From Anoxybacteroides tepidamans (GTDB lineage Bacteria; Bacillota; Bacilli; Bacillales; Anoxybacillaceae), in contig NZ_JACHEP010000001.1 of the NCBI RefSeq assembly GCF_014201465.1, forward strand, positions 166,833-230,832: a stretch of DNA of 64,000 nt, given 5' to 3'. The translations under genes were made by a program, and so were the position numbers. Under the pieces are notes generated by a model, which made no database searches, had not been told where the DNA came from, and worked only from the letters and a program-made list of their open reading frames with translations. Positions 46,218 through 50,070 of the stretch are shown piece by piece. The stretch's first letter is position 1, and the number at the start of each line of letters is the position of its first letter.

Positions 46218-46505
46218 TCACCCTAGACGGAAGACGATGCCATAGCCGCCGCGTGGATATTCCCATTGAATGTTTTCATACGGACAGCCGATGCGACAGC
46301 TGCCGCACTCATGACACCCTTCATAGCCGACGTGCATCCGGACTTCTTCCCATTTATAGACAGACGCTGGGCAAAAAATCGTACAAATTTTATCCGGGCA
46401 TTTCGTTAAACAAATATTCGGATCCAGCACGTGAAGATGTGATTTCGTATCGGCATTGAAGCGGACTAAATATTGTTTTTCTTCAATCGTTTGCGCCTTC
46501 ATCAT
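46218..46505 (-). CDS. fixX: Ferredoxin-like protein FixX
   Basis: 95 residues from the ATG at 46505, which overlaps the fixC stop as ATGA. Cysteine motifs: CLTKCPDKICTIFCP and CHECGSCRIGCP; not every position of the two clusters is standard, as is usual in FixX. It passes electrons between EtfAB and the FixC flavoprotein/quinone branch. Part of etfB-etfA-fixC-fixX. Confidence 0.92.
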   Translation of the reverse strand: MMKAQTIEEKQYLVRFNADTKSHLHVLDPNICLTKCPDKICTIFCPASVYKWEEVRMHVGYEGCHECGSCRIGCPYENIQWEYPRGGYGIVFRLG

Positions 46506-47797
46506 TTCATCACCTTCCATGCTTTCATCATATCGCGCGCCAGCTTAAATTTTTGTTTCGTCGAGCCGAGGTCACGCCAAATCTTTTGCTGTTTCTCCCA
46601 TTTTGATGCGCCGTCGACCGTAAACATTTGGCTTGCTGCGCGGTTGAGCATCGGGATGTATTGCTCAAAATATTGCGGGAATCGCTCAAAATGATGCGTC
46701 GCATCTTTGTATTTTTTCAAATCTTGCCCGATAAAGCTTTCCATGAGTTTCATTCGGTATTGGTCGAGCATGCTTTCGGAAAAGTCGTTTTGCGACTTCG
46801 CCATGATGATCGTTTCCGCTGCCAACCGTCCGGATGTCATCGCCATATTCGATCCTTCGCGATGAATCGCGTTGACAAGCTGTGCAGCGTCGCCGACGAC
46901 GAGCACCCCGTTGCCCGCAACTTTCGGAATCGAATGATAACCGCCTTCTGGAATTAAGTGCGCTAAATATTCGACTGGTTCGCTTCCTTGAATATATGGG
47001 CGAATCATTGGATGATTTTTCACATGCTCAAGCAACTCATACGGCTTAATTTTATGTTTAATTAATCCTGATAAAAGCGTTCCGACCCCGACGCTTAACG
47101 TATCTTTATTCGTATATAAAAATCCGGTTCCTAAAATACCTTTTGTTGCATCGCCAAAAATTTCGATCGTACAGCCTTGGTTCGGCTCGAGATTGAACCG
47201 GTCTTCAATGATGTTTTTATCGAGTTTTAAAATTTCCATCGTTGCTAAAGCGACTTCATCCGGTCGCCATTCACGATGGAAGCCAAGCTGTTTTGCTAAA
47301 AGGGAGTTGACGCCGTCCGCTAACACAACGACATCGGCATAAATGTCGCCATCTGGACGGTCTGTACGGACACCGACGACGTGGCCGTTTTCAACAATAC
47401 ATTCGACCGCCACCGTTTCACAAACAAGTAGCACTCCTTGTTCGACGGCTTTTTCCGCAAACCATTGGTCAAATTTCGCACGCAATACGGTAAAGTTGTT
47501 GTACGGTTCACGTCCCCACTCTAACCCTTTATAGCTAAACGTTATGGCCGATTCTTTATCCATCATCATAAACCGCTGTTCGACAATCGGCCGTTCAAGC
47601 GGAGCTTCTTTATAAAATTCCGGAATGATGTCTTCCATCATTTTCCGATACAACACACCGCCCATGACGTTTTTCGCGCCAGGATATTCGCCGCGCTCAA
47701 GCAGCAGTACGTTTACCCCTGCTTTTGCTAGTTCATAGGCACAAGCCGTTCCCGCTGGCCCTGCACCAACGACGATACAATCAAATTTTTCAGGCAT
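46502..47797 (-). CDS. fixC: FixC / ETF-quinone oxidoreductase-like flavoprotein
   Basis: About 431 residues from the ATG at 47797 (GGAGGGGA seven bases upstream; a TTG two codons earlier is less likely). The FAD dinucleotide motif CIVVGAGPAGTACAYELAK is near the N-terminus; GVLYRKMMEDIIPEF, VVLADGVNSLLAKQLG and VVGDAAQLVNAIHREGSNMAM are typical FixC blocks. It hands electrons from EtfAB to menaquinone. It overlaps the etfA end by eight bases. Confidence 0.93.
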   Translation of the reverse strand: MPEKFDCIVVGAGPAGTACAYELAKAGVNVLLLERGEYPGAKNVMGGVLYRKMMEDIIPEFYKEAPLERPIVEQRFMMMDKESAITFSYKGLEWGREPYNNFTVLRAKFDQWFAEKAVEQGVLLVCETVAVECIVENGHVVGVRTDRPDGDIYADVVVLADGVNSLLAKQLGFHREWRPDEVALATMEILKLDKNIIEDRFNLEPNQGCTIEIFGDATKGILGTGFLYTNKDTLSVGVGTLLSGLIKHKIKPYELLEHVKNHPMIRPYIQGSEPVEYLAHLIPEGGYHSIPKVAGNGVLVVGDAAQLVNAIHREGSNMAMTSGRLAAETIIMAKSQNDFSESMLDQYRMKLMESFIGQDLKKYKDATHHFERFPQYFEQYIPMLNRAASQMFTVDGASKWEKQQKIWRDLGSTKQKFKLARDMMKAWKVMK

Positions 47798-48842
47798 TGG
47801 CAATCCCCTCCTTCGCTCCAGCTGCCGCCTTTATTTTAGAAATCTCTTCTTTGAACCGTTCAATCAATAGCGGCACAATTTCAAACGCATCGCCGACAAT
47901 TCCGTAATGGCATGATTGGAAAATGGGCGCGTTTGCGTCTTTATTAATCGCAATAATCAACTCCGAGTTTTGCATGCCGACGACGTGCTGAATCGCTCCC
48001 GAAATACCGATCGCAAAATAAATTTTCGGTGTCACCGTCACACCCGTTTGTCCGACTTGGTGATGATGGTCAATCCATCCTGCCTCCACGACATCGCGGC
48101 TCGCCCCAACCGCACCGCCAAGCACTTCTGCGAGCTGATGAATGAGTTGGAATCCTTCTTTGCTGCCCATCCCTTTTCCGCCAGCAACAATAATATCTGC
48201 TTCATCAATGCGCGCTTTTTTCGTCGTCTCTCTTACAATCTCTAACACTTTCGTCCGCATCTCTTCTTCGCGCAGTTTAATATGTTCTTCTACTATTTTT
48301 CCTGTTCTTGACGGATCTGGTGGTAACGCTTTCATGACTTTCGGGCGAACGGTTGCCATTTGCGGACGATATTTTTTGCATAAAATCGTCGCCATAATGT
48401 TGCCGCCAAACGCCGGTCGGCTCGCTAGCAGTAAACCGGTATCTTCTTCAATATCGAGCATCGTCGTATCAGCCGTCAAACCGGTCGGCAAATCGGTAGC
48501 AATGGCGCTCGCTAAATCTTTTCCCGTCGGCGTCGCACCATATAACAACACTTCCGGCTTATACTTTTCACAGCAATCAAGCAGCGCGCGCATGTATGGC
48601 TCTGTTCGATAATATTCAAAAATTAGGTCATCGTATACGTAAACGATATCTGCACCGTACGTAAACGCTGTGGAGGCACGCGGTTTTACACCGCTTCCAA
48701 TTAATACGCCTGCCAATTCTGTTTTCCGTTTGTCCGCGAGCTGTCTTCCTGCCCCTAATAATTCAAGCGAGACAGGCGCAATATTCCCGTCTTTTACTTC
48801 TAAATACACCCATATTCCCCGGTAATCGTCAAAGTTCATCAT
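47790..48842 (-). CDS. etfA: Electron transfer flavoprotein alpha subunit (FixB-type)
   Basis: About 350 residues from the ATG-ATG at 48842/48839. FAD-binding C-terminal domain: IIVAGGKGMGSKEGF, GGAVGASRDVVEAGW, HHHQVGQTG, YFAIGISGAIQHVVGM, AINKDANAPIF. The usual ribosome site is absent: a mobile element begins exactly at the ATG, and the GGGGGAG that should precede it now lies 406 bp away beside the etfB stop. Translation may now depend on sequence inside the element (weak AGAAGA) or be reduced. Confidence 0.92.
   Translation of the reverse strand: MMNFDDYRGIWVYLEVKDGNIAPVSLELLGAGRQLADKRKTELAGVLIGSGVKPRASTAFTYGADIVYVYDDLIFEYYRTEPYMRALLDCCEKYKPEVLLYGATPTGKDLASAIATDLPTGLTADTTMLDIEEDTGLLLASRPAFGGNIMATILCKKYRPQMATVRPKVMKALPPDPSRTGKIVEEHIKLREEEMRTKVLEIVRETTKKARIDEADIIVAGGKGMGSKEGFQLIHQLAEVLGGAVGASRDVVEAGWIDHHHQVGQTGVTVTPKIYFAIGISGAIQHVVGMQNSELIIAINKDANAPIFQSCHYGIVGDAFEIVPLLIERFKEEISKIKAAAGAKEGIANA
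48835..48839 (+). other. TTCAT target/TAM next to the IS605-type element
   Basis: TTCAT (reverse complement of ATGAA at the start of etfA) abuts the left end of the element. IS200/IS605 elements insert 3' of a short fixed tetra- or pentanucleotide, which also serves as TnpB's TAM. Confidence 0.6.
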
Positions 48843-49245
48843 TCTTCTAGCGCAGGAGACCCCCACTTCAACGAGTGAAAAGGAGTAAGTGGGGGAGGAA
48901 TGCGCCTTCCTCCTTTCTTTTTGTGTATGATATAATAAAGGTATGGAGAAAACCGTTGAATAAAGGCACTCCATCTGTTGCTACTCGATGTAGGGAGTTG
49001 GTTGCAGGAAACGTTGCAACCGTAAACAATAGAGCGTACATCCGTCTGTTGTGCGTGGAAGTCAAGTACTGCCTACAGACATGCCGAGCCACTCGGTAGC
49101 GACATAGGCATGACCTGTGTCGTTGGGTAGTCGTCAACCTGCCCCTGATGCAACCCCAAGCCAAGGAAGGAGGACAACGTCCGCTCGCACTTCTGGGGAG
49201 TTGCAAGCCCCCACTTCGAGCGTTAGCTAAGTGGGGGTAGTTGAC
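48840..49245 (+). mobile_element. Non-autonomous IS200/IS605-type element (no tnpA or tnpB)
   Basis: Both ends carry the same hairpin stem, CCCCCACTT with AAGTGGGGG (48860-48895 at the left, 49208-49237 at the right), and the right end finishes GGGTAGTTGAC, as in Geobacillus-type IS605/IS1341 ends. No transposase or TnpB frame is present. Removing 48840-49245 joins TTCAT to GCCCTTCTCCCCC, which on the coding strand restores GGGGGAG-N7-ATG for etfA; this fixes both boundaries. No target duplication, as expected for this family. Confidence 0.75.
48943..49245 (+). ncRNA. Candidate orphan omega-RNA-like transcript
   Basis: An extended -10 (TGATATAAT, 48928-48936) faces right inside the element and would make an RNA of about 300 nt running to the right-end hairpin. 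Sequence beyond the right end would serve as guide and is the etfB-etfA junction. The transcript is antisense to the operon. The omega-RNA identity is inferred from element type and position. Confidence 0.45.
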
Positions 49246-49257
49246 GCCCTTCTCCCC

Positions 49258-50070
49258 CTATTGAAACAACTCTTTTTTCGCTAAGACGAGCGAAAGCAAT
49301 TGTTCGACTTTTTCTTTCGTACTTCCTTCGAGCAATTTTCCATCTTCTGGTTTTGGCGGTGCCCATACTTTTGCAACAATCGTTGGAGATCCTTTTAGTC
49401 CTAACTGTTTGCGGTCAACGTTTTCTAAATCGTCTGCGGTCCAAATCGTTGGTTGATAACGTGCAGCTTTAATCATATTTGGCAAAGGTGCAAAGGAGAT
49501 GTCGTTAATTTCTTTTTCAACGGTAAACAAGCACGGCAATGTCGATTGGACGATTTCATAGCCGTCTTCTAACTTGCGTTGAACGATCGCATAACCTTTT
49601 TCTTTGTTAATTTCAACAACTTTTTTTACACCTGTGAGAGGAGGAATGTTTAAACGGCGGGCAATTCCCGGTCCGACTTGCCCCGTGTCTCCGTCGATCG
49701 TCATTTTTCCGCAAATAACGAGGTCGATCGGACGTTGCTTCGCGATTTTTTCGAGCGCTTTTGTGAGAGCATAGCTCGTCGCGAGAGTATCTGCGCCGGC
49801 AAACGCGCGGTCGGAAATCATATGCCCTTCATCCGCGCCAAGCTCAATGCATTTTTTAATCGCCTTTACCGCTGGAGGAGGCCCCATCGTCAACACCGAA
49901 ACCGTTCCCCCATACTTCTTTTTCAAGCGAACGGCTTCCTCTACCGCATGAGCATCATACGGATTTAAAATGGCCGGCGCGCTCGCTCGATCCATTGTAT
50001 TCGTTTTTGGATTCATTTTAATGATTTTCGTATCAGGAACTTGCTTAATACAGGCTACAATATGTAGCAT
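49258..50070 (-). CDS. etfB: Electron transfer flavoprotein beta subunit (FixA-type)
   Basis: 270 residues. VACIKQVPDTK at the start, NPYDAHAVEEAVRLK, SVLTMGPP, ADEGHMISD and CGKMTIDGDTGQVGP are EtfB/FixA blocks that bind the second nucleotide (FAD or AMP). GGGGGGAC precedes the ATG. Together with EtfA, FixC and FixX it forms an EtfABCX complex, which in other organisms bifurcates electrons from NADH to ferredoxin and quinone. Bifurcation here is inferred from gene order. Confidence 0.93.
   Translation of the reverse strand: MLHIVACIKQVPDTKIIKMNPKTNTMDRASAPAILNPYDAHAVEEAVRLKKKYGGTVSVLTMGPPPAVKAIKKCIELGADEGHMISDRAFAGADTLATSYALTKALEKIAKQRPIDLVICGKMTIDGDTGQVGPGIARRLNIPPLTGVKKVVEINKEKGYAIVQRKLEDGYEIVQSTLPCLFTVEKEINDISFAPLPNMIKAARYQPTIWTADDLENVDRKQLGLKGSPTIVAKVWAPPKPEDGKLLEGSTKEKVEQLLSLVLAKKELFQ

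Follow-up and report, generated by a model that had tools for sequence, protein, structure and literature searches.

Palindrome-associated transposable elements (PATEs) of the IS200/IS605 family, found for example in Halanaerobium hydrogeniformans, have IS605-type hairpin ends and no transposase; according to the accessible part of their description, they are often moved by a trans-acting transposase, and the H. hydrogeniformans PATE keeps tnpB-end and right-end sequence (PMC7290912). MITEAba12, named after ISAba12, is likewise a small non-autonomous IS derivative with many copies. In contrast to the element studied here, it apparently does not belong to IS200/IS605, and no ribosome-site role is seen in the accessible part of its description (PMC6382973). 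In phage T4 genes 38 and 25, as outlined in the accessible text, structure between the Shine-Dalgarno (SD) sequence and AUG shortens the functional spacing, and opening the hairpin by mutation reduces translation (PMC3014915).

Here we describe a 406-bp element in a 64,000-nucleotide stretch of the Anoxybacteroides tepidamans genome (hereafter, the window). Like the PATEs in the account above, it has IS605-type ends without a transposase and a region from the tnpB-end side; as far as that account reaches, it differs from them in having an additional conserved RNA domain, in occurring in many copies, and in an antisense SD accompanied by enrichment at start codons. It is small, non-autonomous and multi-copy, as MITEAba12 is described to be. 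The predicted placement of its hairpin between SD and AUG is the arrangement outlined for T4 genes 38 and 25; whereas those are single genes, the SD and hairpin of the element are mobile and joined to an ATGAA. Rickettsia palindromic elements, which are mobile and tolerated inside expressed genes, add in-frame codons; the present element would instead act at initiation.

Element Structure and Insertion Site

The element occupies window positions 48840–49245 and carries a hairpin at each end. The arms of the left-end hairpin (48860–48895) lie at 48860–48868 and 48887–48895, those of the right-end hairpin (49208–49237) at 49208–49216 and 49229–49237, and both pairs read CCCCCACTT/AAGTGGGGG. The element begins directly after the host target TTCAT (48835–48839, plus strand), the reverse complement of the ATGAA that starts fixB, and closes with GTTGAC, leaving no scar. 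Inspection by eye of the listed ORFs within 48840–49245 revealed no tnpA- or tnpB-like ORF, transposase or nuclease. The subterminal imperfect palindromes at both ends, the fixed 5′ target motif without target duplication, the precise empty sites (at fixA-fixB and at pgk), the lack of a transposase gene and the ends held in common with IS of the family firmly assign the 406 bp to the non-autonomous (miniature) IS200/IS605-type elements.

The struck gene, fixB (47790–48839, minus strand), encodes the electron-transfer flavoprotein (ETF) alpha subunit as an intact ORF of 349 aa. It stands second in a fixABCX-type operon of consecutive minus-strand ORFs, together with fixA (ETF beta subunit, 49258–50070), a FixC-like oxidoreductase (46502–47803) and a FixX-like ferredoxin (46218–46520). 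ETF domains of fixA and fixB scored above Pfam cut-offs, while all Fix-named NCBIfam models scored below their curated cut-offs at the operon. Given this succession of FixA-, FixB-, FixC- and FixX-like ORFs, the gene called etfA in the original prediction is better named fixB. A second etfA homologue with 44% identity lies elsewhere in the genome (G000:C7:96915-97889), with two stop codons within the match.

Deletion of 48840–49245 restores the order fixA stop-GGGGGAGAAGGGC-ATGAAC. The original fixB SD, GGGGGAG (49252–49258, minus strand), now lies 406 bp further from the fixB ATG, which begins at 48839, and the element supplies a further ATG (48840–48842, minus strand), immediately upstream of the fixB ATG and in its reading frame. 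Among 13 loci of relatives, the fixA-fixB junction was readable in 12, none of which contained the element; the script did not locate the junction in the remaining one (L166). The empty junction in G005 and G006 reads TTTCAATAGGGGGAGAGGGGCATGAACTTTGACG. The joined site aligned without gaps to G005 (93.0% over 400 bp), G006 (91.5% over 400 bp), G001 (89.8% over 400 bp) and G002 (91.2% over 398 bp). Reading the 406 bp as ordinary spacer is ruled out by these empty sites. The type of element, its exact boundaries and its location between the ribosome site and the start codon, all proposed in the original prediction, were confirmed, and the identity and insertion geometry are settled with near certainty.

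Copies and Distribution

Dozens of copies were found in Anoxybacillus/Geobacillus. A second full copy in the same genome (89% identity) adjoins the start of what is presumably a resA-like gene. A search of 101 genomes matched all or part of the element in 38; under stricter filters, a covariance model built on the RNA domain matched 22 of 121 (own genome included in both counts). The two outcomes named beforehand as counting against a mobile element, relatives carrying the 406 bp as spacer and a lack of other copies, were thus both looked for, and neither was found.

A scripted rule for the TTCAT...GTTGAC boundaries held for 60 of 62 copies examined; L129 and L133 failed it but also have TTCAT by eye, the right end of L133 being altered. 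TTCAT is constant at the left of copies and right flanks vary. On plasmid pDSM15939_2, a copy lies at the annotated rocF start, its junction coinciding with that start. A collection of 50,697 phage records gave no match to the element at the sensitivity used. One viral-collection contig, IMGVR_UViG_2630968389_000004 from IMG/VR, contains the RNA domain's core pattern.

Several related sequences were observed besides full copies. Two solo elements of ~56 bp in the same genome (L005 and L006, 1501–1538 with left neighbours) appear by eye to join the left-hand half of the left-end hairpin with the right-hand half of the right-end one, preceded by TTCGT in L005 and TTCAT in L006. Diverged relatives of the RNA domain (L315 in G084; L316–L319 in G011) include some with additional hairpins and one in another family of the order. 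Two decayed copies (L326 in G004, L327 in G018) have by eye lost the right part and kept the left end and SD tract. The genes behind these left ends are, we assume, HAD-type and alanine dehydrogenase-like, respectively, and the retention of left end and SD tract before genes is suggestive.

Judging from its family, the element would be mobilized by TnpA in trans. Y1 TnpA gave four matches in the own genome. Two IS200-like tnpA copies there (L022 and L023, on contigs C7 and C9) show TTCAT beside a hairpin end by eye, and their products are possible candidates for trans-acting transposases.

Relationship to tnpB-Bearing Elements

A search for a full IS with TnpA/TnpB and the same ends had been suggested. 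The ends are indeed shared by a full IS; the closest one, L055 (1380 bp, target TTCAT), is tnpB-only. We take L055 and its relatives to be IS1341-like. NCBIfam identifies its 375-aa protein as an RNA-guided TnpB, with a score exceeding the cut-off. The left end common to the element and L055 is 83.8% identical over 68 nt. The omegaRNA-like scaffold and right end of the element (49100–49245, plus strand) are 95.9% identical over 146 nt to the part of L055 that runs from its tnpB stop up to the IS terminus. An omegaRNA gene would be expected to show identity of this kind, to sequence that follows a tnpB stop and finishes with the IS.

The miniature thus shares target, both ends and the omegaRNA-like region with the tnpB-only IS and differs in lacking tnpB. 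The place of tnpB is taken by an extended −10, TGATATAAT (48928–48936, plus strand, by eye), and a conserved structured RNA of ~155 nt (48945–49097, plus strand) unmatched in the tnpB-bearing parent. A strict sigma-70 promoter scan returned no promoter at 48928–48936. RNAalifold on 22 copies predicted 71 pairs in the RNA domain, 10 of them changed on both sides; this alignment and one of 16 copies used for the left end (A1 and A2) were picked for diversity from 77 sites. The focal RNA including the omegaRNA-like part had a folding z of −4.5. Rfam contained no family for the element RNA at gathering score, the two matches otherwise obtained falling far below it. By sequence, then, the element contains both an omegaRNA-like region and a conserved RNA that is uncatalogued and absent from the parent IS, and so is more than an end-only remnant. 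We also observed that the tract CCTCCTTT (48909–48916), which precedes the −10, is complementary to part of the conserved AAGGAAGGAGG in the omegaRNA-like region (49163–49173).

Origin by simple internal deletion of a tnpB IS is disfavored: the stretch from the left end to the omegaRNA-like region matched only short pieces (E 0.05 or worse), and the RNA-domain model run on tnpB ISs gave only E 0.14–0.58.

TnpB guides are described as recording the insertion flank. By position and by analogy with such guides, host DNA at 49246–49267 (plus strand), antisense to the end of fixA and the original SD, would be the guide segment. No cognate TnpB was found in the own genome, a draft of 54 contigs in which a copy may have been missed; the TnpBs present reached ~20–32% identity over part of the protein. 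With no close TnpB found, any guide function there would be dormant, and where a cognate TnpB exists the guide RNA could protect the site of the element. We would guess that the RNA domain supports guide-RNA production or stability.

An RNA read from the element could also regulate fixBCX, lowering or controlling the host gene as an antisense RNA or as a guide with a TnpB-type protein. In its favor, the extended −10 and conserved RNA lie antisense to the operon, and so does the would-be guide to the original SD. That no cognate TnpB was found in this genome argues against it, as do guides that vary by site and struck genes without evident common function by eye, and we regard regulation of this kind as very unlikely.

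Insertion at Start Codons

The target TTCAT is the complement of ATGAA, so the element often lands between a ribosome site and its start codon. Start codons with an SD accounted for 28 of 77 distinct insertion sites (pooled), pgk among them. A site was called a start when the ORF had at least 49 codons or ran off the locus and an SD lay 4–12 nt upstream in the right flank; under this simple ORF and motif rule, one call (L083, 49 aa) is doubtful. The statistics treat related copies as separate draws, with duplicates removed by exact flanks only.

The first set comprised 62 copies, of which L129 and L133 were dropped and the remaining 60 merged by identical flanks into 58 sites. Start codons made up 24 of these 58, whereas of the background TTCAT motifs only 12 of 318 (window) and 15 of 438 (flanks) were start codons. 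From the 24 loci of the later set, three unparsed ones (L283, L295, L296), a duplicate (L284) and a truncated one (L298) were left out; 4 of the resulting 19 sites were start codons. This small set was not blind, since L286 and L288 had been seen before; leaving them aside, the count is 3 of 17. Outside these counts stand the rocF copy (L068/L325), further loci inspected later and copies listed but unfetched. The start-codon idea arose from about two dozen printed copies, among which were 20 of the 77 sites (11 of 20 at start codons); the other 57 were for this reason counted apart, and 17 of them were start codons (p = 1.7 × 10−8 vs. window).

The excess varied among left ends, start codons making up 11 of 20 for A-type, 15 of 52 for B-type and 2 of 5 for others. 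In G022, all 10 further copies were located away from start codons. The pgk target occurs once in its genome, G034, by a search with the first 70 residues, and its ribosome site is uninterrupted in the congeners G016 and G024. Further start-codon targets are presumably galU-, pyrE-, queA- and resA-like, as named from their N-termini.

Such an excess could arise at an ordinary MITE whose SD-like letters are incidental: the pyrimidine tract CCTCCTTTC would be a terminator or promoter-proximal module of the element’s own RNA gene, and start sites would be over-represented because intragenic hits are purged or because the transposase favors such DNA. Purging agrees with the depletion of intra-ORF sites, which number 10 of 58 in the first set, next to 24 start and 24 intergenic sites (start/intra-ORF/intergenic in background TTCAT: 12/230/75 in the window, 12/221/157 in flanks). 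However, the excess of start codons held against intergenic TTCAT as well, with a start-to-intergenic odds ratio of 6.25 vs. window (p = 1 × 10−5) and 13 vs. flanks (p = 2 × 10−10); a comparison labelled L012 is not independent here, L012 being the window's own first 20 kb. The tnpB ISs with the same target also argue against incidental letters, since only 1 of 19 was at a start codon, like background (p = 0.010 vs. 28 of 77; p = 0.032 vs. 17 of 57 unseen sites). This control is small: among 46 loci with a tnpB match, 24 were skipped because the left end was unrecognized and 3 as duplicates, leaving the 19 (L143 and L291 have no tnpB match). The presence of core genes among the targets is a further point against an ordinary MITE.

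Antisense Left End

On the antisense strand, the left end begins with AAAGGAGG (or AAAGGGGG), which is followed by a covarying hairpin and, after another 6–9 nt, by the host ATG. The antisense strand of the focal copy reads AAAGGAGG-AA-[GGCGCA...UGCGCU]-AGAAGA-AUG-AUG, with the predicted SD for fixB at 48909–48916 (minus strand) and, around the left-end hairpin, a basal stem at 48849–48906 (minus strand; arms GGCGCA at 48901–48906 and TGCGCT at 48849–48854). Other copies have basal stems CGCGCA/UGCGCG, GGCGA/UCGCC or AGCGCA/UGCGCU, also 6–9 nt from the host ATG; by eye, 2–3 nt separate SD and stem and 4–7 nt separate stem and first AUG. As in the T4 arrangement, SD, hairpin and AUG would come to a functional distance once folded. 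The search used did not find the basal stem in three left-end versions (L111, L121, L297).

In the 16 chosen copies, the two helices were 97.3% paired, and three basal pairs changed on both sides. None of 500 shuffles reached the count of both-side-changed cells and 22 of 500 reached the count of such pairs, a control limited by the relatedness of the copies. Since tnpB ISs have the basal stem too, the covariation may reflect a role in transposition. For the SD, 76 of the 77 copies showed a pairing energy of at least −8.0 in strength, whereas 16 of 18 tnpB-IS left ends had almost no SD (−0.4 to −2.4), the exceptions being L145 (−3.9) and L148 (−7.0).

Structure predictions were mixed. In 100-nt leader folds of 27 of the 28 start-codon copies, mean basal pairing was 0.87 at 37 °C and 0.85 at 60 °C; the mean unpaired probability rose from 0.34 to 0.51 for the SD and from 0.33 to 0.51 for the ATG between these temperatures. 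The basal stem of the focal copy is weakly predicted in the longer fold (0.01 at 37 °C, 0.37 at 60 °C) and is part of the MFE structure in a shorter one.

An incidental origin of the SD letters draws further on the terminator-like hairpin with a T-run on the plus strand (48891–48913), upstream of the −10, and on CCTCCTTTC or a close form lying near the −10, away from the left-end hairpin, in distant relatives (L315, L316, L318, L319; G011, G084). Two of the G011 copies (L316, L318) lie by eye at likely start codons without an SD tract beside the left-end hairpin, so the link to start codons may not need the hairpin. Against a terminator, its hairpin is weak in the common B-type copies (mostly −3.7, compared to −10.5 in A-type) and yet the SD is kept there, which disfavors this reading of the letters. 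B-type SDs were also stronger at start-codon copies than elsewhere (p = 0.0098, possibly confounded by subfamily), with no difference in A-type (p = 1.0), and the spacing to ATG across the hairpin is alike in different left-end versions. We consider the ordinary-MITE account rather unlikely on balance, while granting it a real share of the probability.

An in-frame fusion or a short leader ORF coupled to the host ATG was rejected by eye: frames differ among left-end versions, and in the common B type the SD-proximal ATT-started frame meets a stop codon ahead of the ATG.

The reading we favor, at a probability of about 0.6, is that the element brings a portable, split ribosome site that preserves translation of the struck gene. 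In the mRNA, AAAGGAGG would be followed by the covarying hairpin, a few nucleotides and the ATG; folding of the hairpin would bring the SD to ~7–9 nt from the first AUG, and with the distance so shortened fixB would still be translated at some level. The antisense left end would thus be built to make landing before a start codon harmless. We infer this ribosome-site function from sequence and predicted structure, and some of the structure predictions and the distant relatives speak against it.

The original prediction had the insertion separating etfA from its ribosome site by 406 bp. The geometry is as proposed. In functional terms, however, the gene has probably not been cut off from a ribosome site: an SD and a hairpin are present in the antisense left end itself, and other members of the family occupy the same position, one of them at pgk. 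The insertion might still be neutral or damaging, merely lowering fixB and tolerated because the second etfA-like gene described above, whose match shows internal stop codons, is present. This is improbable given that the fixB ORF is intact and that the architecture is repeated at other core genes and at a pgk found once in G034.

Discussion

Taken as a whole, the comparisons would also fit a broader account, to which we give about even odds: a portable hairpin-bridged ribosome site evolved antisense in the element, making start-codon insertion near-silent and the ATGAA starts of even core genes a safe harbor, and the element also has its own guide-RNA gene and can borrow both TnpA and TnpB from relatives. 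Among the titles and abstract beginnings listed, most subscription papers being outside this scope, no IS-borne ribosome site at start codons was found.

The family yields a conserved structured RNA without an Rfam match and guide-RNA-like genes without a nuclease. Transposable elements can bring promoters. If the proposed reading is true, an element with a ribosome site placed for any struck start codon would represent a new way of being harmless. The presence of a 400-bp insertion in front of pgk would then also be accounted for. The co-evolution of the target motif (TTCAT) and end structure with host translation signals would then become testable.
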